Below are positions 2,706 to 25,541 of a DNA stretch of 28,381 nt, piece after piece; within the stretch, counting starts at the first letter, position 1; each line of letters starts with the position of its first letter. The position numbers were made by a program, and so were the translations under genes. The notes below the pieces were generated by a model. That model was given only the letters and a program-made list of their open reading frames with translations, did no database searches and was not told where the DNA came from. This DNA is from Bacteroidales bacterium (GTDB taxonomy: Bacteria > Bacteroidota > Bacteroidia > Bacteroidales > Dysgonomonadaceae), in the NCBI GenBank assembly GCA_012799155.1, contig JAAZLV010000079.1, positions 1 through 28,381 of the forward strand, in the 5' to 3' direction.

Positions 2706-4004
2706 TTATTCAATGTCATTATACTCAAACCTATCTTTGTATGCCCATAATCCAAGTGCCGGGCTGGAGATATAATAGATCTCCTCTCCGTCGGGAAGGA
2801 TATTGAACCCTTCGTTGAGCCGGGCAGGATCGTAGCGTTGCATCACGCGATCGATGTCATCCCACTGAAAACCTACACTTTCAATCTCGTCGCGGGTGAG
2901 GTTATCAACTTCTTTCCCGGGACAGTAGGTCACTGAAAAACGACCTTCTGAAGAACCGTGTATAAGGTGGGCAGCTGCTCCCAGGTTATCCCGCAACTCT
3001 GCATTCTCCTCCACCGCCTTCAGGGTGTGGGGGGTGCCGAAATAGCCATATTTGCGGATCAATCGATCGATGGTCTTGTCCTCACCGAATTCCTTGAGTG
3101 CAGGAGCCAGGACAATCAGTTCGCCTCCGTCGGCAATAGCCATGCGGGTACGGTAAATCGACTTGTTTCCCAGCCAGGTGCTCTTGAACTCGGTGGGATC
3201 GAGCCAGACCACCACTTTATGAAGCGGTTTCTCAACCATTACGAAGTTCACCTCCAAAGAGAGCCTGGCAGCCCGGTCGAACACATCAAAGTCGTCACCC
3301 ACAAAGAGTCCGTAGGTCTGCTGTTCACCATTGCCATTCACACCTACCACCGTCAACACATAGACGATGGGCAGATGGGTGGCAAAGTTGTCGGTGGCGT
3401 AGTTGAAGACACGCCGTACCGGTGTATCGGCACGACCCATCATCCGTTCCATGCCATAAACAGCACCAATGTAGTGACTCTTGTTGATTCCCTCACTACC
3501 ACCTGTTCCCACAAAGATGTTCTTGTTGTAGTTGGCCATCCCCACCACCTCGTGGGGTACAACCTGGCCGATGGAAAGGATCAGATCGAAGTCGCCCTCC
3601 ACCAGCAAACGGTTTACCTGGGCAGGCCATGAGAAATTGACCTTCCCTTCCGAAACCTCATGGATGTAGCTTTCAGGTACCTCCCCCAGGGTAACCACGT
3701 CGTTGCGCCAGTCATGCTCCCTGAAGAGCGTTTTGGGTGTCCGACCGAACATATGGTTGATCTGCGGCTCCGTCATGGGGGTATGGGTGCCCAGTGCCGG
3801 CAGGATATCGGTCAGCTTCTCCCCGTAATATTCCCAGGCCATCTCTGTCAGCTCACCTGCCCTACTGGGAAGACGGGTATAATCGGGCGGAACGGCAAGT
3901 ACCTTCTGCCGTTCGCCCAATTTACCAAATGCTTCATTGAGACCTTTCTTCAGATCATCGCGCGAGAGAGCAATATCGGAAGAACCTTTCTCGTAATAAA
4001 TCAT
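2706..4004 (-). CDS. LarA-like nickel-dependent 2-hydroxyacid racemase/epimerase (DUF2088)
   Basis: 432 residues from the ATG at 4004; an in-frame ATG at 4070 would add 22 residues encoded by the spacer hairpin and is not preferred. Motifs match lactate racemase LarA: PDYTR (residues 40-44), GTH (His74, like His108), PH (His151, like His174), Lys161 exactly ten residues on (like cofactor-bearing Lys184) and His177 sixteen further (like nickel ligand His200). A Lys in LGNKS may match Lys298, but the Gln at the Gln295 position is not evident. LarA uses a nickel-pincer nucleotide made by LarB, LarC and LarE, none of which is in the window. Characterised homologues racemise or epimerise various 2-hydroxyacids, including D-gluconate at C2. 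Among uronate genes and 97 bp after gnd, D-mannonate/D-gluconate 2-epimerase is the most attractive role, as an inference. Confidence 0.87.
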   Translation of the reverse strand: MIYYEKGSSDIALSRDDLKKGLNEAFGKLGERQKVLAVPPDYTRLPSRAGELTEMAWEYYGEKLTDILPALGTHTPMTEPQINHMFGRTPKTLFREHDWRNDVVTLGEVPESYIHEVSEGKVNFSWPAQVNRLLVEGDFDLILSIGQVVPHEVVGMANYNKNIFVGTGGSEGINKSHYIGAVYGMERMMGRADTPVRRVFNYATDNFATHLPIVYVLTVVGVNGNGEQQTYGLFVGDDFDVFDRAARLSLEVNFVMVEKPLHKVVVWLDPTEFKSTWLGNKSIYRTRMAIADGGELIVLAPALKEFGEDKTIDRLIRKYGYFGTPHTLKAVEENAELRDNLGAAAHLIHGSSEGRFSVTYCPGKEVDNLTRDEIESVGFQWDDIDRVMQRYDPARLNEGFNILPDGEEIYYISSPALGLWAYKDRFEYNDIE

Positions 4005-4027
4005 TCTATTTCCAATTTGGGATGTGA

Positions 4028-4073
4028 GATGTGGGTTTTGAGATATCAGATCGAATCTACAAAACCTCACATC
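4028..4073 (-). other. Hairpin in gnd / LarA-like spacer
   Basis: The arms at 4028-4040 and 4060-4073 pair over 13 bp with a one-base bulge (GATGTG plus GGTTTTG against its complement). An inner AGAT/ATCT pairing (4041-4044 with 4055-4058) lengthens the stem. No T-tract follows on the minus strand, so it does not look like a simple terminator. It may affect mRNA processing or stability between gnd and the LarA-like gene. Confidence 0.5.
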
Positions 4074-4101
4074 AGCTCATCAGTGAATCTTCACATCATC
4101 A

Positions 4102-5556
4102 TTACACATCATAGGTGGTGGAGGCAGTATCACCTCCATGACCTGTCCAGTTGGTATGGAAGAATTCACCTCTGTTTCTATCCACACGCTCATACTGGTG
4201 GGCACCGAAATAGTCACGTTGTGCCTGTAGCAGGTTTGCCGGCAGTCGTTCGCTACGGAAGCCATCGAAATAACTGAGTGCGGAAGTGAGTGCCGGCACC
4301 GGTATGCCGTTCATCAGTGCGGTAGCACACACCCTGCGCCAGCTCTCCTGGGCATCTTCCACCGCCTCTTTGAAGAAAGGATCGAGCAACAGGTTCTCCA
4401 GCGAAGGGTTGTTGTCGAAGGCTTTCTTGATATCTCCCAGGAAGCGGGAACGAATGATGCATCCGCCACGCCACATCAGGGCAATACCACCATAATTGAG
4501 GTTCCAGTCATGCTCTTTGGCCGCTTCCATCATCAGGTCGTACCCCTGGGCATAGGAGATGATCTTGGCACCGTAGATTGCTTTTTCCAGGTCGTTGATA
4601 AACTGCTGCTTATCACCCTCGAATGAGGCTTTCTTGCCGCCAATCACTTTCGATGCTTTCACCCTTAAATCCTTTTGAGCCGAGAGGCAGCGAGAGAAGA
4701 CAGACTCACCGATCAGTGTGAGGGGTATGCCCAGGTCGAGTGCCGAGACAGCGGTCCACTTACCGGTTCCTTTTTGTCCCGCGGTATCGAGGATTTTTTC
4801 CACCAACGGGGATCCATCTTCATCACGATATGCCATGATATCGGTGGTGATTTCGATCAGATAGGAATCGAGGACGCCCTGGTTCCACTTCTTGAACACT
4901 TCATGCTGTTCGAATGCATCCATTCCCAATAAATCTTTCATCAGGTGATACGCTTCGTTAATGATCTGCATGTCACCATATTCAATGCCATTGTGCACCA
5001 TCTTCACAAAGTGACCGGCACCGTTCTCTCCTACCCAGTCGCAACAGGGTACGCCACCGTCGACCTTGGCCGAGACTGCCTGGAAGATCTCCTTCACATG
5101 GGGCCATGCTGCGGGGGAACCACCCGGCATCATGGAGGGTCCTTTCAGGGCTCCTTCTTCACCGCCCGAAACGCCGGTACCCACATAAAGCAAGCCTTTG
5201 CTTTCCACATATTTCGTGCGACGGATGGTGTCGGGGAAGTGGCTGTTACCACCGTCGATGATGATGTCTCCCGGCTCCAGCAATGGAAGCAACAGCTCGA
5301 TGAAGTCATCCACCGGCTTACCGGCTTTCACCAGCATCATCACCTTGCGGGGACGTTCTATGGATGCCACAAACTCCTCCAGTGAGCGGGCACCGATGAA
5401 ATTCTTCCCTTTCCCTCTTCCGTCAAGGAATTGATCCACCTTTGCTACCGTTCTGTTGTAGACGGCTACTGTGTATCCTTTACTCTCCATATTCAAGACC
5501 AGATTCTCTCCCATGACGGCGAGTCCGATCAAACCAATATCTGCTTTTTCTTTCAT
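4102..5556 (-). CDS. gnd: 6-phosphogluconate dehydrogenase, decarboxylating
   Basis: Cytoplasmic enzyme converting 6-phosphogluconate to ribulose-5-phosphate and CO2 with NAD(P)+. It is 484 residues, the usual length. The N-terminal Rossmann motif GLAVMGENL (residues 11-19) and NRT at 34-36 fit the NADP-preferring type. Other signatures are GVSGGEEGALKGPSMMPGG, the catalytic segment HFVKMVHNGIEYGDMQ near residue 190, and the C-terminal GEFFHTNWTGHGGDT. The start ATG at 5556 lies 24 bp after the sugar-kinase stop, and the LarA-like gene follows after 97 bp. Gnd normally serves the pentose phosphate pathway; here it sits inside a uronate operon, implying that 6-phosphogluconate is an intermediate when this locus is induced. 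The assignment is secure; the reason for its placement is inferred. Confidence 0.96.
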   Translation of the reverse strand: MKEKADIGLIGLAVMGENLVLNMESKGYTVAVYNRTVAKVDQFLDGRGKGKNFIGARSLEEFVASIERPRKVMMLVKAGKPVDDFIELLLPLLEPGDIIIDGGNSHFPDTIRRTKYVESKGLLYVGTGVSGGEEGALKGPSMMPGGSPAAWPHVKEIFQAVSAKVDGGVPCCDWVGENGAGHFVKMVHNGIEYGDMQIINEAYHLMKDLLGMDAFEQHEVFKKWNQGVLDSYLIEITTDIMAYRDEDGSPLVEKILDTAGQKGTGKWTAVSALDLGIPLTLIGESVFSRCLSAQKDLRVKASKVIGGKKASFEGDKQQFINDLEKAIYGAKIISYAQGYDLMMEAAKEHDWNLNYGGIALMWRGGCIIRSRFLGDIKKAFDNNPSLENLLLDPFFKEAVEDAQESWRRVCATALMNGIPVPALTSALSYFDGFRSERLPANLLQAQRDYFGAHQYERVDRNRGEFFHTNWTGHGGDTASTTYDV

Positions 5557-5580
5557 TTATATCAATTGTTTATTTGAAAC

Positions 5581-6660
5581 TTATCTCTTCACACGGGCAT
5601 TTCCCTTCCAGATGCTCCAGATCACCTCCTCATCGGCGGGCTGGGCATAATCGGTAAGGAAGGTTGTAGCCAGCGCACCGCTAGCCCAGGCAAACTGGAT
5701 CCATCTGGCAGGCTCCATCTGCCGGAGGATGCTGTAGAGCAAGCCCCCTACAAAACCATCACCGCCACCTATACGGTCCATGACGTTGATCTTGCGCAGG
5801 GGTGCTTCATGCCAGTTGCCGTTCTCATAAACAATGGCGCCCCAGAGATGTTCGTTGGCACTGATCACCTCCCGCAAGGTGTTGGCAAAGACCGAGACAT
5901 TGGGGAAAGACCTACCAGCGTTGAGTATCATCCCCTTGAATGCATCAAAGGTATCACCAATATTTTCACCTCCCGCCTTGGGGCCTTCTATTCCGAGACA
6001 GAGCTGGAAATCCTCCTCATTGCCGATCAGTATATCGGAGAGGGAAGCGATCTCGGTGAAGGCCTCTTTCAACTCTTTTTCTCTTCCTTTCCAGAAGGTT
6101 GCCCTGTAGTTGAGATCGAACGAGATCAATGTGCCATGTTTCTTGGCAAAGCGGGCAATCTCCAGGCAGAAATGACTCGTATCAGGCGACAGGGCTGCGA
6201 TCAGACCTGAGAGATGCACAATCTGCACGCCCTCATTTCCGAAGATGCGTTCCAGATCGAAATCTTTCACATTGAGGGTTCTGCCTACCTCACCGGCACG
6301 GTCGTTCTGCACGCGGGGACCGCGCAGTCCGAAGCCGCTGTCGGCAATATTAAACTGGTGGCGGTAGCCCCAGGGATCCCCCTGCGGCACCTCGGGACCC
6401 TCAACGTCCATGTGCCGTGCCCGCAGATCGGATTTGATGAACGCAGCGATGGGGCTCTCTTTCACAAAGGTAGTGAGTACCTTCACCGGCAGCCCCAAAT
6501 AGGAAGAGATGCTTGCTACGTTGGTCTCGGCACTGGTAGCCTGCATCTGAAACATATTCGAACTTTGTACCGGTTGTGCGTTCACCGGAGTGATGCGTAC
6601 TCCCATGCTGGTAGGCACCAGCAATGCATATTTGCAATTTTGTTTTAATTTGAGCGACAT
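5581..6660 (-). CDS. PfkB-family sugar kinase, KdgK-like but divergent
   Basis: About 359 residues from the ATG at 6660. An upstream in-frame ATG at 6699 adds 13 residues encoded by a repeated spacer and looks unlikely. PfkB/ribokinase features are the anion-hole and catalytic motif GGGDG (Asp301), FDLNYRATFW near residue 184 as in 2-keto-3-deoxygluconate (KDG) kinases, and GNEED near 213. Two departures are visible. The N-terminal diglycine region, usually of the form GGxxxNVA, reads ATSAETNVA (41-49). The substrate-loop segment, recalled as YDRxxSA-like in many KDG kinases, reads QNDRAGEV (118-125). KDG kinase is the default call from uronate context. No mannonate dehydratase is present, while gnd follows 24 bp downstream, so gluconate 6-kinase activity is a testable alternative. 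Confidence 0.82.
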   Translation of the reverse strand: MSLKLKQNCKYALLVPTSMGVRITPVNAQPVQSSNMFQMQATSAETNVASISSYLGLPVKVLTTFVKESPIAAFIKSDLRARHMDVEGPEVPQGDPWGYRHQFNIADSGFGLRGPRVQNDRAGEVGRTLNVKDFDLERIFGNEGVQIVHLSGLIAALSPDTSHFCLEIARFAKKHGTLISFDLNYRATFWKGREKELKEAFTEIASLSDILIGNEEDFQLCLGIEGPKAGGENIGDTFDAFKGMILNAGRSFPNVSVFANTLREVISANEHLWGAIVYENGNWHEAPLRKINVMDRIGGGDGFVGGLLYSILRQMEPARWIQFAWASGALATTFLTDYAQPADEEVIWSIWKGNARVKR

Positions 6661-6669
6661 GTTTGATTG

Positions 6670-6697
6670 ATTTGTTGATTCGATAATTTGTTGATTC
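6670..6697. repeat. Two 12-bp direct repeats in SDR / kinase spacer
   Basis: ATTTGTTGATTC occurs at 6670-6681 and again at 6686-6697. A second short duplication (GCTGAC, GCTGAC) sits at 6706-6718. The spacer looks like low-complexity slipped repeat rather than a recognisable operator. It overlaps the possible 13-residue N-terminal extension of the kinase, which argues against that longer start. Confidence 0.5.
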
Positions 6698-6725
6698 AAT
6701 GTTTAGCTGACTGCTGACCGCTTAA

Positions 6726-7538
6726 TCAAATACTAAACGAATCGAAACCACCATCGACGATTGCAACCGTACCGGTGACAAAACGGGATGCATCACTGAC
6801 CAGGTAATGGAGCGTTCCGAGCAAATCCTCCGGATCACCGAAGCGGCGGAACGGTGTGTGGGCAATGATCGTGTTGCCTCTGTCGGAGAAGGAACCGTCA
6901 GGGTTGGTAAGCAGTGCCCTATTTTGTTCAGTGATGAAGAATCCCGGACAGAGTGCATTCACACGGAAACTCTCCCCGAACTTTGTAGCCAGCTCACCGG
7001 CCAAGTACTTGGTGAAGTTGGTCACGGCTGCCTTGGCAGCTCCATAACCGGCTACACGTGTCAATGGTCGCAAAGCAGAAGCCGAGGAGACATTGATGAT
7101 GTTACCCTTTTTCTGTTCAACCATATACTCAGCAAATACCACGGAAGGAATCACGGTCCCCATCAGGTTCAGATCGACAACCTTACGGAAGTCATCCATC
7201 TTTAGGTCGAAGATGTTGTTGTTGGGCCCAATGGTGGCACCGGGCATGTTGCCCCCCGCACCGTTGATCAGTACATCGATCTTTCCATATGCCGCCACTA
7301 TATCACGTGCATTCTGTTGCAGCACCGCCTCGTCAGAGACATCGGTCTGCAGGAACATCGCCTGACCACCGGCAGCTTTCACTTTTGCTGTCAGTTGATC
7401 ACCTTTCTCCTTGTTTCTGGCCAGCACGGCTACCTTGGCGCCATGTGCCGCCAGGTACTCCACCATGGAGGTACCAAGTACGCCGGTACCTCCAGTGATG
7501 ACGATTACCTTATCCTTTATGTTAAATAATTCGTACAT
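6726..7538 (-). CDS. uxuB: SDR-family D-fructuronate reductase / D-mannonate oxidoreductase
   Basis: A 270-residue classical short-chain dehydrogenase. The cofactor motif TGGTGVLG is at 15-22, NGAGG at 92-96, catalytic Ser at 151/152, and Tyr165-x-x-x-Lys169 in GYGAAKA. The insertion NPDGSFSDRGNTIIAHTP and the ending VDGGFDSFSI resemble the SDR-type UxuB of Bacillus rather than KduD or a generic ketoacyl reductase. The expected reaction is NAD(P)H-dependent reduction of D-fructuronate to D-mannonate in the cytoplasm. It lies between uxaE (102 bp upstream) and the PfkB kinase (65 bp downstream). The longer upstream gap carries a promoter-like TAAATTTG element, so it may also start its own transcript. 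KduD is the main alternative, but no KduI partner is present. Confidence 0.85.
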   Translation of the reverse strand: MYELFNIKDKVIVITGGTGVLGTSMVEYLAAHGAKVAVLARNKEKGDQLTAKVKAAGGQAMFLQTDVSDEAVLQQNARDIVAAYGKIDVLINGAGGNMPGATIGPNNNIFDLKMDDFRKVVDLNLMGTVIPSVVFAEYMVEQKKGNIINVSSASALRPLTRVAGYGAAKAAVTNFTKYLAGELATKFGESFRVNALCPGFFITEQNRALLTNPDGSFSDRGNTIIAHTPFRRFGDPEDLLGTLHYLVSDASRFVTGTVAIVDGGFDSFSI

Positions 7539-7640
7539 AGTATTTTTAGTTTGGACAAATTTATACGATCAATTCATCGTGTGAAAGTGATTTTACGTAA
7601 ATCTCATTTCAAATAACGCTAAATTGAATCACGATCAATC
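7539..7640 (-). promoter_or_regulatory. Spacer upstream of uxuB-type SDR with TTTC-19-TAAATTTG
   Basis: Within this 102-bp gap, the minus strand carries TAAATTTG at 7563-7556 (matches TAnnTTTG), preceded by TTTC at a 19-nt spacing (three of four bases of the -33 TTTG box). Transcription would start only about a dozen bases before the ATG. It may be an internal promoter for uxuB and the genes after it, or chance in AT-rich DNA. Confidence 0.35.
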
Positions 7641-8888
7641 TTAAATGGTGAACAATCTTCTCAGATGGCGCTCGTAAATGTTCTCTTCCACGCATGAACC
7701 GACCACATCAGCATATTTCTCCAACATGGATGTATAGGTAGTTCCCATCTCGGCAGCCACCTTGTAAGCCACATGGATCAACTGCCGGAAGTTGGCATTG
7801 TAGTCAGGATGTCCCGGGATATGACGCAATGTGTTGGCATACTTCTCACTACTCCATCCGTTCACCTCTTCTACCGAGGGCAGCTTGGATCCATCGATGT
7901 CAATCACATCTGCATAGGGACCACAGAGCTCCTCCTGTCGGTTGTAAGAGCTTTCATAGATCTTCTTTGCCAGCTCAAGGCCTTCGCCACCGGCGACAGC
8001 CAGTCCGATCACCTCTTCCAGCCAGGTAGTACCGGCCGTTTTCAGGTGCAATCCTTTGTCGTAGCGAAGAATGATATCTGCCATGATGGGGTAGATGGAA
8101 AACTTGTCGCTGCCGGAGTGAACGCTGAGTTTCAATTCCTGTGGCAATCCAAATTCGCGAACGGCATAGTCGATCACCAGCACATCCTCTTCGAACTCTT
8201 TCTCAAACTGTTCCAGGTCACCCACATAGTCAACACCCTTGTTGAAGCGACCGGTGAACTTTGGGGCGATTGTCTGTGCAGGAACGCCCTTGTCTGCCAG
8301 CATCTTGAGGATAAAGAGCAGCTCTACCGGAGTCTGTGGTGATTCCACTTCATCCATAGAGACCTCCGTGATGAAGTTCCCTTCTCCCTTCTCTTTTTTC
8401 AGAAAAGCGTAAATTTCCGAAGCATGCTGAGTGGCAGCCAGAAACTTGGATGCAATGGTTTCCAGGAGCTCTTTTGTCACCTGCAAGGGAGCTTCCATGC
8501 CGGGAATCTGCAATTCGCCCATATACTTCTCACAAGAAGCAACAAATGCATCCACCTCATCCTTGCTGCTTTCCTTACCAATAAAGGAGGCCACATCGAG
8601 GGTGAAGAAGTCTGATACCTCCACATATTTGGCCACGGTGCTGAGGTTGATATGATCGGCATCCACGAAATAGAGGCCCTTGAAGTCAAGCGCTTTCACC
8701 GCTGCATCGGCCTCTTTACGGGTGTCTGCGGGAACGGTACCCACGTAGATATGTTCACGGTTGGATTTGTTCCAAACAGGGCTAATATCCAGTCCCTTTT
8801 CATTTGCCTTCATGATGGCTTTCAACTGTGCCTTGCCCTGATAGGTGAAACGGTCACCCACACCAATACTGTATTTACCTAATTTCAT
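7641..8888 (-). CDS. uxaE: Tagaturonate 3-epimerase
   Basis: 415 residues from the ATG at 8888; a TTG three codons upstream is in frame but is a poorer start. The whole sequence matches the UxaE family first described in Thermotoga, which interconverts D-tagaturonate and D-fructuronate and so merges galacturonate into the glucuronate branch. Recognisable segments are the N-terminal KLGKYSIGVGDRFTYQGKAQ, the conserved HSGSDKFSIYPIM near residue 257, and HVAYKVAAEMG near the C-terminus. The gene starts 12 bp after uxaC, so the two are almost certainly co-transcribed. UxaE replaces the UxaB/UxaA branch (tagaturonate reductase, altronate dehydratase) of enterobacteria, and neither gene is seen here. 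Confidence 0.9.
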   Translation of the reverse strand: MKLGKYSIGVGDRFTYQGKAQLKAIMKANEKGLDISPVWNKSNREHIYVGTVPADTRKEADAAVKALDFKGLYFVDADHINLSTVAKYVEVSDFFTLDVASFIGKESSKDEVDAFVASCEKYMGELQIPGMEAPLQVTKELLETIASKFLAATQHASEIYAFLKKEKGEGNFITEVSMDEVESPQTPVELLFILKMLADKGVPAQTIAPKFTGRFNKGVDYVGDLEQFEKEFEEDVLVIDYAVREFGLPQELKLSVHSGSDKFSIYPIMADIILRYDKGLHLKTAGTTWLEEVIGLAVAGGEGLELAKKIYESSYNRQEELCGPYADVIDIDGSKLPSVEEVNGWSSEKYANTLRHIPGHPDYNANFRQLIHVAYKVAAEMGTTYTSMLEKYADVVGSCVEENIYERHLRRLFTI

Positions 8889-8900
8889 CTTATACAAATA

Positions 8901-10307
8901 TTAAAAGTTAAAAAATTTGTTCGCATTTTGATAGGAGATGTTCTCCACCATCTCACCGAGAAAGGCCATTTCAGAGGCAGGGAGCAATCCTTTTTCCAGA
9001 TCGTCGCCAATCAGGTTGCAAAGGATCCGGCGGAAATATTCGTGGCGCGGGTAGGAGAGGAAACTGCGCGAGTCGGTGAGCATCCCCACAAAACGACTCA
9101 ACAGCCCCAGGTTAGAGAGTGAGTTCATCTGAGCCTCCATTCCTGTCTTCTGATCGAGGAACCACCAACCGGAACCGAACTGTATCTTGCCGGCTACGGA
9201 ACCATCCTGGAAATTACCGATCATGGTGGCAATCATATCGTTGTCACGCGGGTTGAGATTGTAAATGATGGTCTTTGCCAGCTTGTTGTCCGTGTCAAGC
9301 TTGTCGAAGAATCGGCTCATAGCCTTTGCCACGGTGAAGTCACCAATTGAGTCGAAGCCGGTATCGGGGCCCAGCTTGTTAAAGAGACGTGTGTTGTTGT
9401 TGCGGATGGCGCCATAGTGGAACTGCTGGGTCCACCCTTTCTCCCAGTCCATAAGGGCTCCTTCGTGCAGCATGGCCGATTTAAATTTTCTGATCTCCGC
9501 TCCTGTCAGCTCGTTCCCGCCATACACCTTGTCAAAGATAGTTTCGATCTCTTTTTCTGTATACTCTTCGGCATAAAACTCTTCAATCCCGTGATCAGAA
9601 AGCTTGCAGCCCACCGAAGCGAAGAAGTCGTGTCGGATGCGCAGTGCTTCAATCAGATCACCGAATTTGCTGATGGTGACACTGGACACTTCTGATAGTT
9701 TCTCAAGATAGGCCCGGTATTCTTTCGCGTTTTCCACCGCCATTGCTTTGTCGGGACGCCAGGTGGGCAGAACTTTGATACCAAAACCCTCCTCTTTGAG
9801 CGAGAGATGATGCTCAAGCGAGTCTACAGGATCATCGGTGGTACATACCACCTTCACGTTGAACATCTTCATCAGACCCCTGGCTGAATATTCCGGTGTC
9901 CGCAATTTTTCAGTACATTGATCATAAATCTCCCTGGCGGTAGTGGGGGTCAATAATTTCTCCACACCGAATGCCGACTTCAGCTCGAGGTGTGTCCAGT
10001 GATACAATGGGTTTCGCATGGTGTAAGGTACCGTTTCGGCCCATTTCTCAAATTTCTCCCAATCGCTCGTATCCTTACCGGTGCAGTATTTTTCATCCAC
10101 ACCGTTGGTGCGCATCGCCCGCCATTTGTAATGATCACCTTCGAGCCATATTTGCCCGAGGTTGTCGAACCGGTGATTATCTGCGATATAGGCAGGGTTC
10201 AAATGACAATGGTAATCAATGATGGGCTGTTTTGCCGCATGCTCGTGATAGAGCTGACGTGCAGCATCACTTTGCAATAAAAAATCTTCGTGAATAAATG
10301 GTTTCAT
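8901..10307 (-). CDS. uxaC: Uronate isomerase
   Basis: A 468-residue amidohydrolase-fold enzyme converting D-galacturonate to D-tagaturonate and D-glucuronate to D-fructuronate. The N-terminal metal motif His33-x-His35 lies in IIDYHCHLNP. Family signatures further along are VVCTTDDPVDSLEHH, RHDFFASVGCKLSDHG, FGSGWWFLDQK and MLTDSRSFLSYPRHEYFRR. Length is as expected for UxaC. It is the first catabolic gene of the left arm, 117 bp downstream of the regulator gene. A promoter-like TATCTTTG lies about 90 bp before its ATG, so it can plausibly start its own transcript. It begins a cytoplasmic route continued by uxaE and uxuB. Confidence 0.97.
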   Translation of the reverse strand: MKPFIHEDFLLQSDAARQLYHEHAAKQPIIDYHCHLNPAYIADNHRFDNLGQIWLEGDHYKWRAMRTNGVDEKYCTGKDTSDWEKFEKWAETVPYTMRNPLYHWTHLELKSAFGVEKLLTPTTAREIYDQCTEKLRTPEYSARGLMKMFNVKVVCTTDDPVDSLEHHLSLKEEGFGIKVLPTWRPDKAMAVENAKEYRAYLEKLSEVSSVTISKFGDLIEALRIRHDFFASVGCKLSDHGIEEFYAEEYTEKEIETIFDKVYGGNELTGAEIRKFKSAMLHEGALMDWEKGWTQQFHYGAIRNNNTRLFNKLGPDTGFDSIGDFTVAKAMSRFFDKLDTDNKLAKTIIYNLNPRDNDMIATMIGNFQDGSVAGKIQFGSGWWFLDQKTGMEAQMNSLSNLGLLSRFVGMLTDSRSFLSYPRHEYFRRILCNLIGDDLEKGLLPASEMAFLGEMVENISYQNANKFFNF

Positions 10308-10424: not shown

Positions 10425-13400
10425 TCACTCCAAATCATATTCTTTAGTTGCCGGTATCGGACTAATATTCATTCTTCTGTATGCTGTTGGCGTCATCTGG
10501 TACTTATTCTTGAAACATCTGGAGAAGTACTTGGCATCATTCATTCCCACCATGTAAGAGATCTCCTTGATGGTGTAATCTTCCTGTAACAGTAACACGG
10601 CAGCATGCTGCATCAACACATCGCGTACATACTCCACCGGCGCCAAGCCGGTGAGTCCTTTCACCTTCTTGAAAAAAACAGATCGGCTCATCCCCATCTC
10701 CACCGCCAGGTCTTCAATCACATAATCGTTGTTACCCAGGTGCGCTTCAATGAACCTGTTGATTGACTGGATAAATACCAGATCCTTATCGTTGGCAACT
10801 GTTTCATTGTTGCTGGCCTCCTCCGACAACATACCGGGTGAGTGGTAGACCCTGTTGCGATAAAAATTCTGCAATTCATTTCTCCTTTGCAACAGGCTTT
10901 TCACTCTCGCCTTGAAGAATGAGACGCTGAAAGGTTTGGAAATGTACTCATCGGCCCCTTGTTCAAATCCCTCCAGCTTACTCTCAAGCGTTGTTTTGGC
11001 CGTGAGCAACAGAAAAAGAATGTGACTGGTCTGCACATTCTTTCGGACATTCTCAAGCAGCTCCATGCCATCTGCTTCAGGCATCATGATATCACTCACA
11101 ATGAAATCGGGTATCAACTCCTGTGCTTTCTCAAATCCCTCCACGCCGTTTGATGCTTCATGCACTTCATAGTCTTCCTCCAGGATGGAGCGAATGAACT
11201 GACGCAGATCCTCATCATCTTCCACAACCAATACCAGGGGATGTTCGTTCATATGGGTGAACGATTCACACGGAGCAACCGAACCATTTTGTACCTCCTC
11301 ATTTTCTGACACTCTCCCGCTGACGGTAGTTTCATCGATGGTGACCTCGGGGCCAAGATGTGCAATCCCCTTCTTGAAGAAGAGGGTGAAGCAGCTGCCC
11401 TGGTTCACCTCGCTCTCCACTGCTATGCGTGCCATATGCTTGTCGGCCAATTCTTTTACAATGGAGAGGCCTATGCCGGTACTGGGCTTGCTCTTGTCTT
11501 CGTTGAACGACTCAAAACGCCTGAACAACCGTGCCTGTTTCTCCTTCGAGATTCCGGAGCCGGTATCCCTGATCTCAACAGCAAACTCATTGTTTAGGTT
11601 GTAGAGGGTTACAGTTATTGATTTTCCAGACGGAGTATACTTGAACGCATTCGAAAGCAGGTTCAGAATGATCTTCTCCAATGCTTCACCATCGGCCCAG
11701 ATAATTGCATCGCCAGCTCGGTTCACGAACCGGTAGTCGATCTTCCTGATCTCCGCATTTTTGACATATCCCTCGAAAAGGTTCTCAATAAACGGGGCTG
11801 CCTCAATCCTGTGTACAGTGAGTGGCAACTGTGACATCTTCTGGAAATCTAGGATCTGGTTCACCATGTTCAGCAACCGGTTGGTATTCTTAGAGACTAG
11901 CTTGAGCTGATTCTTCACAAGTGTTGGAGTGCTGCTACTGGAGAGAAGATTCTCAATGGGCGAGACAATCATGGTGAGCGGGGTGCGGATCTCATGTGAG
12001 ATGTTGGTGAAGAACCGTGTCTTGATCTCCGATTCACGTTTCTCCAGGATAATCTTGTTGCGCATCCGGTAAAAGGTATAGAGTATCCTGTAGGCAAAAT
12101 AAAGTATCAACAACAGCAATAGCACGTAGATTAAATACGCCCATCCGGTGGCCCAGAATGGCGGCATCACTTCGATGGTCAGCAGTCGCTCGTTATCAGC
12201 CCATACGCCGTCGCTGTTTGTCGATCTCACCCGGAAGAGATACTTGCCCGGGGATAGATTGGTGTAGTTGGCAATCCGTTGGTTACCGGAAAAGATCCAC
12301 TCCTTATCAAACCCATCCAACTTATAGGCGTAAAAGATATTCTCAGGATCGATGTAATCGAGTGCTGCAAACTCAATACTGAAAAAATTCTGGTTGTGCT
12401 TCAACTGCAACCTGTCAGTCAGATGAATGTCACGTTTCAGCGGACCATCAGGCGTGATGGGAACGGAACGGTTGAATAGCCTGAACTGCACCAATGCCAG
12501 GTAGGGATTAAAAGTGTTGTTCCTCACCTGATCGGGATCAAAAAGAATCATTCCGTGTGAGTACCCGAATAGCATTCTCCCGTCACGCAGCCGGCACCTG
12601 GAGTCTTCAGAGAAATTATTTCGTTTCAACAGCCGTTTCATCTCACTGAAGTTCTCAAATGTCTCATCGCTACGGTTGAATTTGGTCAGCCCACCTTCGC
12701 TGCCAACCCAGATGTTACCGAGCCGGTCCTCCTGTAAAGAAAGAATGATGTTGGAGGGGAGTCCATGGTTGCTATCGTATGTCTCGAATAGAATCGGGAA
12801 TCCCATACTATCGGTTTCCGACACCCGGCTGATCCCCCCCCCGAAGCTACCGATGAAAGTCTCTCCATCCTCAGTGGTACAAATGTCGATGATATCATTG
12901 GCACCCACAGTGCCGGGATCATCGCTGTTGTGAACGTAGGTCTTGTAAGAGATCGCATCGGCGCTTCTGAAATCGGGGTCAAACATAATCAAGCCTAAAG
13001 TTGTTCCCACACAAATATTCCCGTAGCGGTCCTCGTTGATGATTCGCACCTGATCACCCAGGCTGAAGGGATAGCCTGTTAGTCCGTTTCCATGGTGAAT
13101 CACCCTCTCACCACCGGTACCATGGAGTATCAGGTTGATTCCACCTCCAAATGTTCCAACCCAGATATTCCCATTCTTGTCTTCATAGATGGAATAAACG
13201 TGGTTGTCACTCAGCGAGTGGATATCTCCCGGGCTATGTTGTATCCGGTGGATCGCATAGGTCTCACCACCCTCATCCGGTGTCAAACGGTAAATACCTT
13301 CTCCCTTGGTGCCAATCCATATGTTCTGTTGGGAATCTTCTGTGATGCAATAGGCGATGCCTCTCAACGGATTGCCCTTGCCGATAGTTCCCTTCTCGGT

Positions 13401-14855
13401 GAGAATACCCTTTTCCTTTAGTGAAGCGTCGTAGAGATGGATCATCCCATCTTTGGTGGCAGCCCAAATGGTACCTTGTGAGTCCTCAAAGATGGGACGC
13501 ACATCATTGCTGATGGTGGAATGGATATTGTCGTTCAGTAATATAGACCGAAACTGACTATCATCAAAGAAGATCACCTTCTCCAGTCCGTGTGACCGGG
13601 TACACATCCAGAGGTTTCCTTGCCTGTCGGAGTAGGCTGAGTGCATCATGTTGGAAAACAACCAGGAAGGAGAGAAAGGCTCGTTGTAGAAGGGGACCAG
13701 ATGGTCAGTCTCTGGATCATAAAGTGAGAATCCTCCCCCCCGGGGATGAATCCAAAGACGATCCTCAATGTCTTCAAAGATAAAAAAGTTGGGGGGGAAT
13801 ACACTCGTTTCGGTACTCTCAATAAATGGCTTGTAATGAAGATATTGACGAGAATAGGGATTGAACCTTGCGACCCCGAGGTGATCTGTTTCGAACCACA
13901 GATTTCTGTTCTTATCCAGGTAATAGGAAAATATCTGAGCAGAAGCCATTTCAGGGAGAGTTTGCCGGTTATAAATCTCCACGCTGCCATCGTGAGTGTT
14001 GTATATAACGAAACCGCTATGAGATGAGATCACTGCAATCTTATCTGTTGAGATTTCATCGATGGCAATCACATCGGTGGTCAAACCTGTGTGCAATGGA
14101 TGAAAGCTCCCTTTCTTCTTGTCGTAACGCCAGATGACACCTTTATCAGCACCAAACCAAATCTCCTCGTTCAGTTCTAAGACGCAGAAAAAGGAAAACT
14201 CATCGGAAAAAGGTGTATTGGTCGCCGGATGGAAGTAAAAAATGGGCACACTGCTTCCGGCCTCAAGGAAAGTAAGACCTCTGCCGGTAAGGAACCAGCA
14301 ATTCCCCTCACTGTCTTCATGCACCCCGTTCACCCGGTTGTCGGTAAGATTGTGATTGCGCGTATGATACTGATTGGCATGAAACAGTGAGTCCGTGACA
14401 ACGATGCATCCATCTTCTTCAGACAGAAGCCAGACATTCCCATTTGATGAAGAAATGATACCGGATGCAGCAAAGGGATGACCCTCGAGACCCGAAATAG
14501 CTCCTGTACCGGTAAAGGTCTCTGTGCGGACATCAAAACGATAAGCATGGTTGTCGTATGTCAGGGTCCAGATGTTACGGTAACGATCCTCAAAGAGGTG
14601 ATCAATCCTACTGCTCTGTGATGCGATATCTGTGCTACCGGGCAGGTGGTAGGTTTTGAAGGTATAACCATCGAACCTGCTCAGGCCATCCCAGGTGCTG
14701 AACCACATAAATCCACTCCGGTCTTGCAGGATATCGGTGATGGTATGTTGCGGGAGTCCGTCCTCTGGACCATAATGAACAAAGTAAGCCTCCGGTTGTG
14801 CCTTGAGGGGAACCACAACCACGAGAATTAAAAACAGCAGAATTTTTATGTTCAT
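10425..14855 (-). CDS. Hybrid two-component system regulator (HTCS): sensor, kinase, receiver, AraC output
   Basis: 1476 residues from the ATG at 14855 (an in-frame ATG 33 bp upstream precedes a poor signal). Domain order: signal peptide (1-19); about fourteen Reg_prop beta-propeller repeats to about residue 790; a Y_Y_Y domain (about 820-895); a transmembrane helix (about 900-925); a HisKA dimerisation domain with His954 in NISHEIRTPL; a HATPase with N-box LLNAF-type and STGIGLS; a receiver with Asp1255 in VSDIMMP; and a C-terminal AraC double helix-turn-helix (about 1356-1462). All catalytic positions are intact. HTCS proteins bind an oligosaccharide in the periplasm and activate their PUL directly. 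It is divergent from susC and upstream of the uronate operon, so it probably senses a pectic oligosaccharide and controls both arms. Confidence 0.96.
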   Translation of the reverse strand: MNIKILLFLILVVVVPLKAQPEAYFVHYGPEDGLPQHTITDILQDRSGFMWFSTWDGLSRFDGYTFKTYHLPGSTDIASQSSRIDHLFEDRYRNIWTLTYDNHAYRFDVRTETFTGTGAISGLEGHPFAASGIISSSNGNVWLLSEEDGCIVVTDSLFHANQYHTRNHNLTDNRVNGVHEDSEGNCWFLTGRGLTFLEAGSSVPIFYFHPATNTPFSDEFSFFCVLELNEEIWFGADKGVIWRYDKKKGSFHPLHTGLTTDVIAIDEISTDKIAVISSHSGFVIYNTHDGSVEIYNRQTLPEMASAQIFSYYLDKNRNLWFETDHLGVARFNPYSRQYLHYKPFIESTETSVFPPNFFIFEDIEDRLWIHPRGGGFSLYDPETDHLVPFYNEPFSPSWLFSNMMHSAYSDRQGNLWMCTRSHGLEKVIFFDDSQFRSILLNDNIHSTISNDVRPIFEDSQGTIWAATKDGMIHLYDASLKEKGILTEKGTIGKGNPLRGIAYCITEDSQQNIWIGTKGEGIYRLTPDEGGETYAIHRIQHSPGDIHSLSDNHVYSIYEDKNGNIWVGTFGGGINLILHGTGGERVIHHGNGLTGYPFSLGDQVRIINEDRYGNICVGTTLGLIMFDPDFRSADAISYKTYVHNSDDPGTVGANDIIDICTTEDGETFIGSFGGGISRVSETDSMGFPILFETYDSNHGLPSNIILSLQEDRLGNIWVGSEGGLTKFNRSDETFENFSEMKRLLKRNNFSEDSRCRLRDGRMLFGYSHGMILFDPDQVRNNTFNPYLALVQFRLFNRSVPITPDGPLKRDIHLTDRLQLKHNQNFFSIEFAALDYIDPENIFYAYKLDGFDKEWIFSGNQRIANYTNLSPGKYLFRVRSTNSDGVWADNERLLTIEVMPPFWATGWAYLIYVLLLLLILYFAYRILYTFYRMRNKIILEKRESEIKTRFFTNISHEIRTPLTMIVSPIENLLSSSSTPTLVKNQLKLVSKNTNRLLNMVNQILDFQKMSQLPLTVHRIEAAPFIENLFEGYVKNAEIRKIDYRFVNRAGDAIIWADGEALEKIILNLLSNAFKYTPSGKSITVTLYNLNNEFAVEIRDTGSGISKEKQARLFRRFESFNEDKSKPSTGIGLSIVKELADKHMARIAVESEVNQGSCFTLFFKKGIAHLGPEVTIDETTVSGRVSENEEVQNGSVAPCESFTHMNEHPLVLVVEDDEDLRQFIRSILEEDYEVHEASNGVEGFEKAQELIPDFIVSDIMMPEADGMELLENVRKNVQTSHILFLLLTAKTTLESKLEGFEQGADEYISKPFSVSFFKARVKSLLQRRNELQNFYRNRVYHSPGMLSEEASNNETVANDKDLVFIQSINRFIEAHLGNNDYVIEDLAVEMGMSRSVFFKKVKGLTGLAPVEYVRDVLMQHAAVLLLQEDYTIKEISYMVGMNDAKYFSRCFKNKYQMTPTAYRRMNISPIPATKEYDLE
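12834..12842. repeat. Nine-base homopolymer C/G tract inside the HTCS sensor
   Basis: A run of nine C on the plus strand (nine G in the coding strand) encodes three glycines in SFGGGISR of the propeller. Seven-base runs lie at 13735-13741 (C on the plus strand) and 13791-13797 (G on the plus strand) in the same gene. The reading frame is open here. Long G tracts can slip during replication. Confidence 0.9.
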
Positions 14856-15194
14856 TACACTTATATTTTGCTCCCTACAAATATACATTTATTTGCTCTT
14901 TCCCTTCAGCATTTTCGATCTTATAACAATATATCACCCCTTAAAAACCAATTTATCACCTCCAGTTCCATTCTAATACATTATCATTGTAATTAGAAAA
15001 TGCCAAAACACTGAATACGAACTATTATGTCAGCGATAAAAGCAAAAACAAATGAATGTTAACTATTTAAACAGTAAGCAACACTTAAATTGAAACTCGA
15101 TACGCATGAAAAAAAAAGTACCTTGAAAGAGAGAGATGGATGAGCCTCCATCTAATATGATGAACAATTATTTACTCACTTATTTTTAATAAAC
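14856..15194. promoter_or_regulatory. Divergent intergenic regulatory region between HTCS and susC
   Basis: 339 bp, AT-rich, with no credible gene; a six-codon ATG-to-stop run at 15106-15126 is probably chance. On the minus strand, TATATTTG at 14885-14878 matches the TAnnTTTG -7 element and would give a short leader for the regulator. On the plus strand I find no TAnnTTTG before susC, which fits a promoter that depends on the AraC-type activator. A dyad lies at 15134-15153. The regulator's operator should lie here but could not be identified. Confidence 0.7.
15134..15153 (+). other. Perfect 7-bp dyad in susC leader
   Basis: AGATGGA and TCCATCT flank a six-base spacer, 41 bp before the first susC ATG. 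It could be a leader-RNA hairpin or a protein-binding dyad. It has no T-tract. Confidence 0.5.
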
Positions 15195-18100
15195 ATGACA
15201 AATATGAATGAAACAGGAATGAAAAGAAAAGTAACCATCGGTTTACTACTCCTACTTCTCTTTTCAATGGGTATTTCAGCCCAAGAGAGAACGATTCGTG
15301 GGGTTGTGGAAGACTCCAACGGCGAACCAATTATTGGTGCCAATGTGATGGTGAAAGGTACGAGCATCGGTGCTGCCACGGATCTGGAAGGAAATTACAC
15401 ACTTTCCGTTCCCACTTCAGCAACCACACTCTACGTATCCTACATCGGTATGAAGGAAGCAGAAGCACCCATCACCGGTAACGTGGTCAATTTCACCCTC
15501 GAAGAAGATATATCCAACCTTGATGAGGTTGTGGTAATCGGTTATGGAACGATGCGAAAACGTGACCTTACCGGATCTGTGTCCTCGGTGAATGCCGAGA
15601 CACTGGCCGCAGTACCGGTAGCCTCCGCCGTGGAGGCTATAACCGGTAAGATGGCCGGGGTGCAGGTACTCACCACAGAGGGTTCACCCGATGCCGAGAT
15701 GCGCATTCGTGTTCGTGGTGGAGGCTCGATCACGCAGAGTAACGATCCTCTCTTCATTGTGGATGGTTTCCCCGTAAGTACCATCTCAGACATCCCGCCT
15801 ACCGATATTGAGTCGATTGATGTACTGAAAGATGCTTCCTCGACCGCCATATACGGATCACGTGGCGCCAACGGGGTTGTCATCGTAACAACTAAGTCGG
15901 GACAAGCTGGCAAACTTCGGCTAAGTTACAATGCATACTTCGGTGTGAAGCAGATCGCGAAAACAATGGAAGTGCTCTCACCCTATGATTATGCATCTTG
16001 GCAGTATGAACTGGCAGCCCTCAAAGGCAACGATGCCATAGAGAATTACAATTCTTTCTTCGGCAACTACCAGGACATCGATCTCTACCGCAATGTACCT
16101 TACAACGATTGGCAGGATCTCACTTTCGGACGTCCCGGCAGCTCCATGAACCACAGCCTGAGCCTCAACGGCGGAAGTGAAAAGATGACCTACGCATTCA
16201 ACTTCTCACATCTCTCCGACAAGGCTATCATGGAAGATTCCGACTACCGTCGCAACAGCATGAGCCTGAAGCTTAACAACAAGGCTACAGACCGTATCGC
16301 ACTCGATTTCTCGGTACGCTACACCGACACCAAGATCAACGGGGGTGGTGCCAACGATGCCAATAGTACGCTCGATACCGACAAGCGGTTAAAGTACTCA
16401 GTGATATACACTCCCATACCGCTGAAGAACCTCGATGCTTCTGCCGGTAGTGCCGACGACGACCTGGGGAACCTCTACAACCCACTGGTATCCATCAGCG
16501 ACAACGCCCGTGAGAAGACTCAGAAGCGTCTCAACATGGCAGGAAGTGCCACCTGGGAGATGATCGACAACCTGAAACTTCGCTCAGAGGTTGGAATGGA
16601 CAGCCAGAACGACGGAGACCAACGCTACTGGGGTCTAACTACATATTATATCAAGAACTACCCCTCGGTCGACAATCAGGGTAAGCCCGCCATCCGTCTG
16701 GTTAACCGTGAACGACAGGCATTGCGAAATACCAACACCATCAACTACGATTTCGAGAATCATCTTGGAGAGGACCACAGCCTGAACATGATGGCGGGTC
16801 ACGAATACATCATACGCAAAGGAATCACGCTTACCGATGAGGTTCACGGCTTCCCAGCAACCTTTACAGCCAATGATGCCTGGCGGCTCTCCTCGCAGGG
16901 GGTACCCTACACCATCGACAACTATTACAACGAGGATGACAAGCTACTCTCCTACTTCGGTCGTATCAACTACGATTACATGAGCAAGTACCTGGTGAGC
17001 GCCACCTTCCGTGCCGATGCCTCCTCCAAGTTCAGCAAAGAAAACAGATGGGGTTATTTCCCTTCAGCTGCCGCTGCCTGGCGCATCTCCTCTGAACCAT
17101 TCATGGAGGGAACCAAGGGATGGCTTGAGGACCTGAAGCTGAGAGCCAGCTTCGGTACCGCCGGCAACAACAACATCCCTTCCGGACAGCTGGTTCAAAT
17201 GTTTGAATCGAAAGCCACTTCATGGATCAACGGCTTCTCAAGTTACTGGGCACCTTCAAAAGTGATGGCCAACCCAGACCTGAAATGGGAGACCACCATC
17301 ACACGTAACTTAGGACTCGATTTCTCTCTTTTGGGAGGACGTTTGAGTGGTACGGTGGAAGCTTATCGCAACACCACCAGTGACCTGCTGATCGAGTTCC
17401 CCGTTGCTGGTACCGGTTACGACACACAGTACCGCAACATGGGTGAGAACCAAAACCAGGGGATTGAAGCAACACTTAACTGGTATGCTGTCAACAGGAA
17501 GAACTTCACACTCAGCTTCAGTGGTAACATTGGCTTCAATAAAACTGAGATCCAGAGCCTGGGTATCATGAACGACTTTGGATATGAGACCTATTGGGCC
17601 TCATCCGAGATTGGATATGATTACTGGATTGCCAAGGGAGGTGCCGTTGGCCAGATGTTCGGATATCATTCCGACGGTCGATATGAGGTGGATGACTTCA
17701 TCGATTATAACGAAACAACAAACCGTTGGAACCTCAAGGAAGGGGTTGCAGATGCCTCCGGCGTGGTGGGTACCATACGACCGGGATCGATGAAACTGAA
17801 AGACCTCGACGGTGACGACATCATCAGCGTAGATGACCGTGAGATCATCGGCGACGCAAACCCAGTTCACACCGGCGGATTCACGCTCAACTCCACTTTT
17901 TACGGCTTTGACCTCGCTGCTGCCTTTAACTGGAGCTACGGCAATGACATTTACAATGCCAACAAGATTGAGTTCTCCCACACCGGGAAGTACCAATACC
18001 GAAACATGATCACCACCATGGAGCCGGGCAAGCGTTGGACCAACCTGCGCGAAGATGGCACAATCAGCAATGATCCCGCAGAACTAGCGGCCATGAATGT

Positions 18101-18410
18101 CAACACCACGATGTGGTCGCCCTACACCTCTCGTATGATCTTCAGCGACTGGGCAGTTGAAGACGGCAGTTTCCTCCGTCTCAATACCCTCACATTGGGT
18201 TATACCCTCCCGAAACACCTGTTAACCAAGGCGAAGATTGAGAATCTTCGATTCTACGTGACCGGCTACAACGTGGCACTCTGGACCAACTACAGTGGTT
18301 ATGATCCCGAAGTATCCACAATCAGAAGGACCAACCTCTCACCGGGTGTCGACTACTCAGCATATCCGAGAAGCCGTCAACTTGTTTTTGGTGTGAACCT
18401 TAATTTTTAA
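15195..18410 (+). CDS. SusC/RagA-family TonB-dependent outer-membrane transporter
   Basis: 1071 residues. Three in-frame ATGs (15195, 15204, 15219) precede the signal peptide; the last gives the cleanest one (MKRKVTIGLL... to ISAQ), so the true start may be 15219. A carboxypeptidase-regulatory-like domain follows (IRGVVEDSNGEPIIGANV), then the SusC plug signature LDEVVVIGYGTMRKRDLTGS with IESIDVLKDASSTAIYGSRG, then a 22-strand-type barrel ending in the aromatic NLNF. It forms the import channel that SusD caps and is energised by TonB. It is the first gene of the right arm, 18 bp before susD. The substrate is inferred from the linked enzymes: pectic oligogalacturonides. Confidence 0.96.
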   Translation: MTNMNETGMKRKVTIGLLLLLLFSMGISAQERTIRGVVEDSNGEPIIGANVMVKGTSIGAATDLEGNYTLSVPTSATTLYVSYIGMKEAEAPITGNVVNFTLEEDISNLDEVVVIGYGTMRKRDLTGSVSSVNAETLAAVPVASAVEAITGKMAGVQVLTTEGSPDAEMRIRVRGGGSITQSNDPLFIVDGFPVSTISDIPPTDIESIDVLKDASSTAIYGSRGANGVVIVTTKSGQAGKLRLSYNAYFGVKQIAKTMEVLSPYDYASWQYELAALKGNDAIENYNSFFGNYQDIDLYRNVPYNDWQDLTFGRPGSSMNHSLSLNGGSEKMTYAFNFSHLSDKAIMEDSDYRRNSMSLKLNNKATDRIALDFSVRYTDTKINGGGANDANSTLDTDKRLKYSVIYTPIPLKNLDASAGSADDDLGNLYNPLVSISDNAREKTQKRLNMAGSATWEMIDNLKLRSEVGMDSQNDGDQRYWGLTTYYIKNYPSVDNQGKPAIRLVNRERQALRNTNTINYDFENHLGEDHSLNMMAGHEYIIRKGITLTDEVHGFPATFTANDAWRLSSQGVPYTIDNYYNEDDKLLSYFGRINYDYMSKYLVSATFRADASSKFSKENRWGYFPSAAAAWRISSEPFMEGTKGWLEDLKLRASFGTAGNNNIPSGQLVQMFESKATSWINGFSSYWAPSKVMANPDLKWETTITRNLGLDFSLLGGRLSGTVEAYRNTTSDLLIEFPVAGTGYDTQYRNMGENQNQGIEATLNWYAVNRKNFTLSFSGNIGFNKTEIQSLGIMNDFGYETYWASSEIGYDYWIAKGGAVGQMFGYHSDGRYEVDDFIDYNETTNRWNLKEGVADASGVVGTIRPGSMKLKDLDGDDIISVDDREIIGDANPVHTGGFTLNSTFYGFDLAAAFNWSYGNDIYNANKIEFSHTGKYQYRNMITTMEPGKRWTNLREDGTISNDPAELAAMNVNTTMWSPYTSRMIFSDWAVEDGSFLRLNTLTLGYTLPKHLLTKAKIENLRFYVTGYNVALWTNYSGYDPEVSTIRRTNLSPGVDYSAYPRSRQLVFGVNLNF

Positions 18411-18428
18411 CCCTCAAAGATTAACTGT

Positions 18429-20195: not shown

Positions 20196-20200
20196 TCATT

Positions 20201-21757: not shown

Positions 21758-21768
21758 CCCAAGACCCT

Positions 21769-21815
21769 ATACCAGTTTACGTGACTCTTTTTTAAAGAGT
21801 TACGCAAACTGGTAT
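21769..21815 (+). other. Long near-perfect hairpin between binding-protein and enzyme genes
   Basis: 22-nt arms at 21769-21790 and 21794-21815 enclose a TTT loop. They pair with 20 Watson-Crick pairs, one G-U and one A-C mismatch; the outer ten bases are ATACCAGTTT. The hairpin sits in the only long gap (86 bp) of the right arm, 28 bp before the GH28 ATG. The arm is followed by TGTGACT, not a T-run, so it is not a typical intrinsic terminator. Partial attenuation or an mRNA processing site is likely. Confidence 0.8.
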
Positions 21816-21843
21816 TGTGACTAAAACTGTAACAACTGAAAGA

Positions 21844-23520: not shown

Positions 23521-23535
23521 AAAGCAGAGGTAGTG

Positions 23536-24327
23536 ATGAAAATAACAATGAAACCTGTAATACTCTTCACATTGCTGTCTTTATCTATGTCGTTGGGGTG
23601 CACAGGACCCAAGCCGGCAAAGATACTGATGGCAGGCGACTCTACCATGGCAGACAAGCCGCTATCCAAACAGCTAGTGGATAGCCTGACCGGGGAGTCG
23701 ACAGAAGAGCCGTTTCTGGAAAGAGGCTGGGGACAATTGTTGCCTGAGATGATTTCCAATATGGGGAGAGTCCTCAATTTTGCCCGCAATGGCCGCAGCA
23801 CACGCACCTTCGTGGAAGAGGGACTCTGGGGTGAATTGTACGATCAGATTGCACCTGGCGATGTGGTCATCATCCAGTTCGGTCATAATGATGGGGTAAT
23901 CACCAAAAGAAGTTACACCAACCCGGCTCAGTTCAGGCTGAACTTTGTGGCTTTCGTCAACGAAGTGAATGCCAGGGGAGCCTACCCGATCCTATGCACC
24001 CCCGTCGCACGTCGCAAGTTCGATGAAAAGGGAGTACTACAACCAACTCATGGGGAGTATCCCGATATCATTCGCTCAGTGGCCACTCAGGAGAAGGTGC
24101 TCCTTATCGACATGGAAGTACTTACCTCAAAATGGTTACAGGATGCCGGCATGGAGGGATCAAAACAGTTTTTCCACAAGCTCCCTCCCGGTGTCAGCAA
24201 GCTCTACCCTGAAGGGCTTGACGACAACACCCACTTCAACGAGCAGGGAGCCAGGGAGGTAGCCCGAATGTTTGTCGACGCGGTCAAAAAACAGAATGTT
24301 GAACCACTGACTCATTTACTCAAATAA
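23536..24327 (+). CDS. CE12-type SGNH pectin/rhamnogalacturonan acetylesterase lipoprotein
   Basis: 263 residues. ATG at 23536 is preferred over the overlapping GTG at 23533, with AGAGG six bases upstream. Lipobox MSLGC (Cys22). SGNH blocks: GDSTMAD with nucleophile Ser36, block II glycine in ARNGRSTRTF, block III QFGHND with Asn118, and Asp230-x-x-His233 in DNTHFNEQGA. This order and the STMAD context match CE12 rhamnogalacturonan/pectin acetylesterases. It removes O-acetyl groups from galacturonosyl residues, exposing the chain to GH28, PL1 and GH105. It is tightly packed (15 bp after GH28, 9 bp before GH105). Confidence 0.92.
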   Translation: MKITMKPVILFTLLSLSMSLGCTGPKPAKILMAGDSTMADKPLSKQLVDSLTGESTEEPFLERGWGQLLPEMISNMGRVLNFARNGRSTRTFVEEGLWGELYDQIAPGDVVIIQFGHNDGVITKRSYTNPAQFRLNFVAFVNEVNARGAYPILCTPVARRKFDEKGVLQPTHGEYPDIIRSVATQEKVLLIDMEVLTSKWLQDAGMEGSKQFFHKLPPGVSKLYPEGLDDNTHFNEQGAREVARMFVDAVKKQNVEPLTHLLK

Positions 24328-24336
24328 CAAATCCCG

Positions 24337-25518: not shown

Positions 25519-25541
25519 TAAAAAAAATATAACTTTGACAC

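Follow-up and report, generated by a model that had tools for sequence, protein, structure and literature searches.

The stretch of DNA analysed here (the window: all 28,381 nucleotides taken from contig JAAZLV010000079.1 of a Bacteroidales bacterium) carries on its minus strand an operon of six genes that may serve the breakdown of galacturonate. It encodes the uronate isomerase UxaC (8901-10307; PF02614, 680 bits; NF002794, 663 bits), the tagaturonate/fructuronate epimerase UxaE (7641-8897; PF16257, 187 bits), a UxuB-type D-mannonate oxidoreductase of the short-chain dehydrogenase/reductase (SDR) family (6726-7538; NF006132, 370 bits, cut-off 281), a PfkB kinase that is a probable hexonate (gluconate or mannonate) kinase (5581-6699; PF00294, 71 bits), the decarboxylating 6-phosphogluconate dehydrogenase Gnd (4102-5556; TIGR00873, 754 bits) and a LarA-family protein of group 18, a putative hexonate 2-epimerase (2706-4070; PF09861, 34 bits, cut-off 23; NF052594 'putative hexonate epimerase', 655 bits, above the curated cut-off of 500 for this group of the LarA superfamily). 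Judged from homologues, the LarA-family protein starts at an ATG at about 4004 and the kinase at about 6660, both internal to the open reading frames (ORFs) as called. An earlier note on this DNA had listed the same six genes, and the Pfam and NCBIfam profile matches establish their identities and their places on the minus strand. The source genome is a draft (444 contigs, 85.2% complete), and the nearest named relatives among the LarA loci that we kept belong to Proteiniphilum.

UxaC, UxaE and the SDR would take galacturonate to D-mannonate, after which the LarA-family protein would invert C2 and the kinase phosphorylate C6, in either order giving 6-phosphogluconate that Gnd would decarboxylate to ribulose-5-phosphate. 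The operon thus supplies the genes for a galacturonate route that would be redox-neutral to ribulose-5-phosphate, a kind of route that the accessible part of PMC6978723 calls interesting for the fermentation of pectin waste. We put the probability that the operon breaks down galacturonate by this epimerase-kinase-Gnd route at roughly 0.6, with every substrate and flux read from sequence. The pathway reading is likely but not original: while the six steps put forward in the earlier note gain from the gene set, the epimerase reading, a kinase that is probably not of the 2-dehydro-3-deoxygluconate (KDG) type and the linkage to Gnd, the route had already been proposed for Thermotoga maritima. New here are, most of all, the lack of cofactor genes, and further the PfkB kinase and the Bacteroidota form of the route, of which we found no version in the open-licence literature, a result that does not prove absence.

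The linkage of these genes is established across many loci. The LarA protein served as query in a scan that found at least 552 relatives; the best 80 loci were kept, some overlapping our genome set (loci and genomes carry L and G numbers below); L055, which has no LarA ORF, is left out of the locus counts. Within six ORFs of LarA, the remaining 79 of these best 80 loci hold Gnd in 71 cases, a PfkB kinase in 68, an SDR in 62, UxaE in 27, UxaC in 23, the mannonate dehydratase UxuA in 9 and the 2-dehydro-3-deoxy-6-phosphogluconate (KDPG) aldolase KdgA in 4, where the SDR and UxaE tags take in distant matches (about 27-30% identity). The addition of 16 loci from the phylum gave 96, with a LarA ORF in 94, and 53 of the 94 extend at least 6 kb to each side (full loci); these loci were selected as best hits and are not independent of one another, and the count of 53, like those of 74, 21 and 131 sequences given below, includes relatives and repeats. 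On the same strand and within 6 kb of LarA, 51 of the full loci hold an SDR, 46 a PfkB kinase, 25 a PdxB-type gene and 18 UxaC, and Gnd, which the earlier note had placed with LarA in its route, proves near-constant (52 of 53); the SDR and UxaE counts of the full loci likewise take in distant matches. The linkage is not due to chance, and an SDR-kinase-LarA-Gnd core is constant where the uronate steps are variable.

Equivalents of LarA residues D72, R75, H108, H174, K184, H200 and K298 are kept in all sequences of what we term type A (131 rows, 114 unique, with L125 and L156 excluded as other LarA types and the canonical LarA rows L157 and L158 dropped), and the window protein has, where checked, the cofactor-linking Lys, the Ni-ligand His and the catalytic residues of enzymes that depend on the nickel-pincer nucleotide (NPN). 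An apparent loss of the catalytic Lys298 from type A, at which Met310 seemed aligned, was rejected, as LarA structure alignments put K298 at K303, which is kept. The residues E174, V175 and W299, an E-V loop and a Trp in alpha 11, are present in every one of the 114 unique type A sequences, with W299 assigned by hand to the Y294 position; the sections of PMC7583248 available name the E-V loop (E-V/S) and Trp as the signature of hexonate groups 18-20, and describe group 19 and 20 enzymes, that of T. maritima included, as epimerising D-mannonate. The predicted model (mean pLDDT, the predicted local distance difference test, of 85; ten sequences) finds its best fold match in T. maritima 4nar (template modelling scores 0.77/0.82, 23% identity), followed by lactate and malate racemases. 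Signature residues and modelled fold thus favour the claim of the earlier note that the LarA-like protein is a hexonate C2-epimerase. The family also includes a type B LarA, 43-45% identical to type A. In G040 it stands in the same operon, followed by larE and larB, while the type A gene is a decayed remnant between Gnd and a Gfo/Idh gene; we infer that the two types have an equivalent function in this operon. G053 and G084 have type B with larE and larB in other gene surroundings. A further, canonical-looking LarA (about 194 bits to Lar_N) occurs in G053, G058 and G042 (L157:1803-3089; L158), all three without larC, and G058 and G042 also without larB and larE.

The sequence fits epimerisation either before phosphorylation, as in the T. 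maritima proposal, or after it, as in Lactobacillus suebicus extracts. It is possible, though in our view unlikely, that the kinase acts first, in which case the PfkB protein would be a mannonate kinase and LarA a 6-phosphomannonate 2-epimerase. Both activities occur in L. suebicus extracts, with the genes not identified there (PMC6978723, as far as its text was available), and R307 and R309 stand in every type A and type B sequence, at positions filled by Lys and Gln in T. maritima GntE. However, the assayed relatives use unphosphorylated D-mannonate (PMC7583248, in part), and no structural support was obtained for a phosphate site.

More striking is that so many carriers of this protein lack the known genes for its presumptive cofactor, a gap that the genome data support well. 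Among 101 genomes of the family, 53 hold a group-18 LarA above cut-off, LarE and LarB exceed theirs in 3 each, the same three type B carriers, and LarC is found in none at E 0.001, leaving 50 of the 53 carriers without larB, larE or larC over cut-off. Two LarC models find no larC even in the three genomes with larB and larE, where nickel would have to be inserted by other means, or not at all. Pairs of larB and larE without larC lie at L087:9156-10674, L088:9846-11365 and L089:7345-9008; directly after larB in L088 (11649-15148) stand a TonB-receptor-like protein and a DUF5074 protein, possibly for nickel uptake; ABC transporter genes had been suspected after this larB, but scanning did not bear this out. 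The source draft genome has none of larB, larC and larE over cut-off, a finding that the earlier note had named beforehand as one that would count against its route. An even sample of 325 genomes across the phylum yielded 16 further carriers, five with LarB, LarC and LarE (G114, G139, G178, G343 and G359) and 11 with none of the three. Since all three are seen in these five, the models work in this phylum; they also match in T. maritima, which was among the controls. It was considered that the gap might be mere loss from draft genomes, and this was rejected because the one-contig genomes G041, G049, G050, G054, G224, G288 and G402 show it too, and because the models match in the five phylum-sample genomes. 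On a tree of LarA, built by a quick method that leaves several deep forks open, the larBCE state needs four changes, and the gap falls in a 35-row family clade, a 10-row clade and one single row. The seven cofactor and catalytic positions never vary among 45 unique sequences drawn from genomes scored as larBCE-less (chance 4e-4, given 141 invariant columns of 422); both the tree and the invariance test score G053 as larBCE-less for its type A copy, although larB and larE accompany the type B copy in that genome. This pattern indicates selection on the cofactor site in the absence of the genes known to supply it.

The gap implies cofactor uptake, assembly by another route or another cofactor. 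Were the last the case, the group-18 type A protein would have abandoned NPN and hold something else in the same site, which would accord with the 50 of 53 family carriers and 11 of 16 phylum-sample carriers in which none of larB, larE and larC exceeds its cut-off. We consider this improbable in view of the invariance of the seven NPN and catalytic positions and of the four among the five larBCE-complete genomes in which the group-18 protein is the sole Lar_N match. Most likely, to judge from the residues kept, the protein still uses NPN or a close analogue, and we infer that in most surveyed carriers this does not come from larB, larE and larC and is taken up or made by other genes. If the residues mean the same as in lactate racemase, the enzyme has outlived its cofactor-making genes, and cofactor sharing or an unrecognised synthesis route would exist in common Bacteroidota. 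The gap is directly testable in cultured strains. The available part of PMC11796402 refers to genomes that have larB, larE and larC and lack larA; we found no mention of the reverse case there or in the accessible parts of related LarA literature, nor anything in the open-licence literature on larBCE-less LarA or NPN sharing.

The operon kinase is labelled in public annotation as a sugar kinase or a 2-dehydro-3-deoxygluconokinase. At two positions that we take to be part of the KDG-binding site of solved KDG kinases, kinases in the operon slot carry Ser in place of Gly and Asn in place of Tyr in 74 of 74 sequences, while both Gly and Tyr are kept in 21 of 21 KdgK-like kinases; both Arg of the sugar-acid site and the catalytic Asp are kept in all 74, as in KdgK. 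This loss of KDG-site residues is plain, and because Gly and Tyr are replaced, the substrate should be another sugar acid. Thus the operon kinase is probably not a KDG kinase, as the route of the earlier note needs, and would act on gluconate or mannonate, which flags a probable and widespread misnaming. Six sequences have another PfkB type in the kinase place and keep the second Gly and Tyr, so that the residue argument does not cover them. A phosphofructokinase-family protein occupies the place between SDR and LarA at L117:6138-7418 and L114:10616-11896. The least likely alternative, in which a UxuA encoded elsewhere makes KDG for the operon PfkB protein to phosphorylate while Gnd and LarA handle external gluconate, could draw on the uxuA and kdgA of the source genome, the frequent annotation as 2-dehydro-3-deoxygluconokinase, the KDG kinases that are the closest solved structures and the uxuA inside the operon in some loci (L028, L030, L071 and L075, for example), but it is hard to sustain against the replaced KDG-site residues, the separate KdgK genes beside kdgA in L082-L084 and the carriers without UxuA or KdgA described below. 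At slightly worse than even odds, we tentatively propose that in two large Bacteroidota groups a nickel-pincer (or pincer-like) epimerase works in sugar-acid catabolism with none of the three known assembly genes present, its cofactor being either vitamin-like and shared by neighbours or made by a pathway yet to be discovered, and that the KDG kinase label of the operon kinase conceals a PfkB-family kinase for a hexonate (gluconate or mannonate).

The earlier note had called the pathway dehydratase-free. This holds for the operon, as the window proteins scanned include neither a mannonate dehydratase nor a KDPG aldolase, but not for the genome, which has uxuA and kdgA elsewhere, and only the operon can therefore be so described. 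The note had further held that co-regulated uxuA and kdgA elsewhere would speak against it; what was found is the presence of both genes. Pfam UxuA is absent from 12 of the 33 high-quality carriers and from 5 of the 29 non-carriers compared with them (p = 0.15), and 7 of these 12 carriers also lack KdgA. In G049 and G050, complete genomes of one contig, SDR-kinase-Gnd-LarA is present and UxuA (PF03786) and KdgA (PF01081) are both absent, with no search made for ManD-type dehydratases, gluconokinases or KDG aldolases of other kinds; G053, on one contig, has the six-gene operon and KdgA but no Pfam UxuA, ManD-type dehydratases again not being searched for. Several observations weigh against the epimerase-kinase-Gnd route. 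In the source genome uxuA is part of a GH67-uxuA-SDR cluster (L001) and a different contig bears kdgA, Pfam UxuA is present in 21 of the 33 high-quality carriers, and the anti-correlation of LarA and UxuA is not significant at the p value just given. Among the full loci, UxaE adjoins the core in just 21 of 53, while KdgA and UxuA lie on the same strand within 6 kb of LarA in 10 and 6, and neither UxaC nor UxaE stands beside the core in G049 and G050. To these must be added the absence of larB, larE and larC from most family carriers, and that PMC7583248, in the part available, reports no activity for group 18 and only hypothesises a hexonate substrate. In the source genome the operon is probably a parallel branch beside the uxuA/kdgA route, as in T. 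maritima.

Next to the operon lie a hybrid two-component sensor/AraC regulator (10425-14888, minus strand; Pfam) and, divergently, a pectin locus (15195-27884, plus strand; Pfam) encoding a TonB receptor, SusD, a DUF4957/DUF5123 protein, the glycoside hydrolases GH28 and GH88, a GDSL esterase and a pectinesterase, which is likely the source of galacturonate for the operon. On the other side, 18 bp after LarA and also on the minus strand, is a Gfo/Idh oxidoreductase (1266-2687; PF01408; NF058561 below cut-off), kin of the glycoside 3-dehydrogenase BT_2158 at a score far under cut-off and kept after LarA in many family loci; it is adjoined by a minus-strand 3-keto-disaccharide hydrolase truncated at the window edge (2-1204; PF06439, 276 bits). 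Both are linked to the operon. In other loci a PdxB-type 4-phosphoerythronate dehydrogenase stands between LarA and Gnd (L033:12288-13418, L052:11297-12430 and similar loci), with NF001309 above cut-off in the two proteins scanned. 4-Phosphoerythronate is a strong inhibitor of Gnd, and the PdxB-type gene may have a role in metabolite repair. A similar role might fall to a 296-residue HAD-type hydrolase directly before LarA (L117:7439-8329, L114:9638-10528 and L118:7872-8762), the L117 copy of which has a weak HAD_2 match (PF13419); as a candidate cofactor gene this protein was rejected, having no relative in the larB-larC-larE stretch L119.

The closest known system is that of T. maritima, for which Rodionova 2012 proposed epimerisation of mannonate to gluconate, a gluconokinase and Gnd (as reported in the parts of PMC6978723, PMC3750489 and PMC7583248 available to us, on which the following comparisons also draw). 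Its pectin/galacturonate locus is aldH-pelB-gnd-uxaRED-gntEK, with a separate kdgAK-uxuBA (PMC3750489). Both systems unite UxaE, a UxuB-type reductase, a LarA-family epimerase (GntE in T. maritima) and Gnd in one pectin-linked cluster, and both genomes have a second uxuA/kdgA branch elsewhere. The gene clustering expected of a GntE-type route is seen here, with UxaC/UxaE/UxuB, epimerase, kinase and Gnd together, but the cluster kinase is of the PfkB family where T. maritima has the GntK-family gluconokinase, UxaC lies inside the operon, unlike in the T. maritima locus, LarA belongs to group 18 rather than group 20, and most carriers lack the larB, larE and larC that are all matched in T. maritima. 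With GntE1 and GntE2 (LarA groups 19 and 20; PMC7583248) the window protein shares the LarA fold as modelled, the NPN residues and the E-V loop with Trp, whereas group 18 has no assay reported in the available part of that paper. L. suebicus likewise goes by UxaC-UxaE-UxuB to mannonate and by 6-phosphogluconate and Gnd, redox-neutrally, to ribulose-5-phosphate, but its extracts show the kinase acting first and the epimerase second, where either order fits the sequence here. The canonical UxaC-UxuB-UxuA-KdgK-KdgA isomerase pathway, finally, has the first steps to mannonate in common with this operon, which has an epimerase and Gnd in place of the dehydratase and KDPG aldolase.

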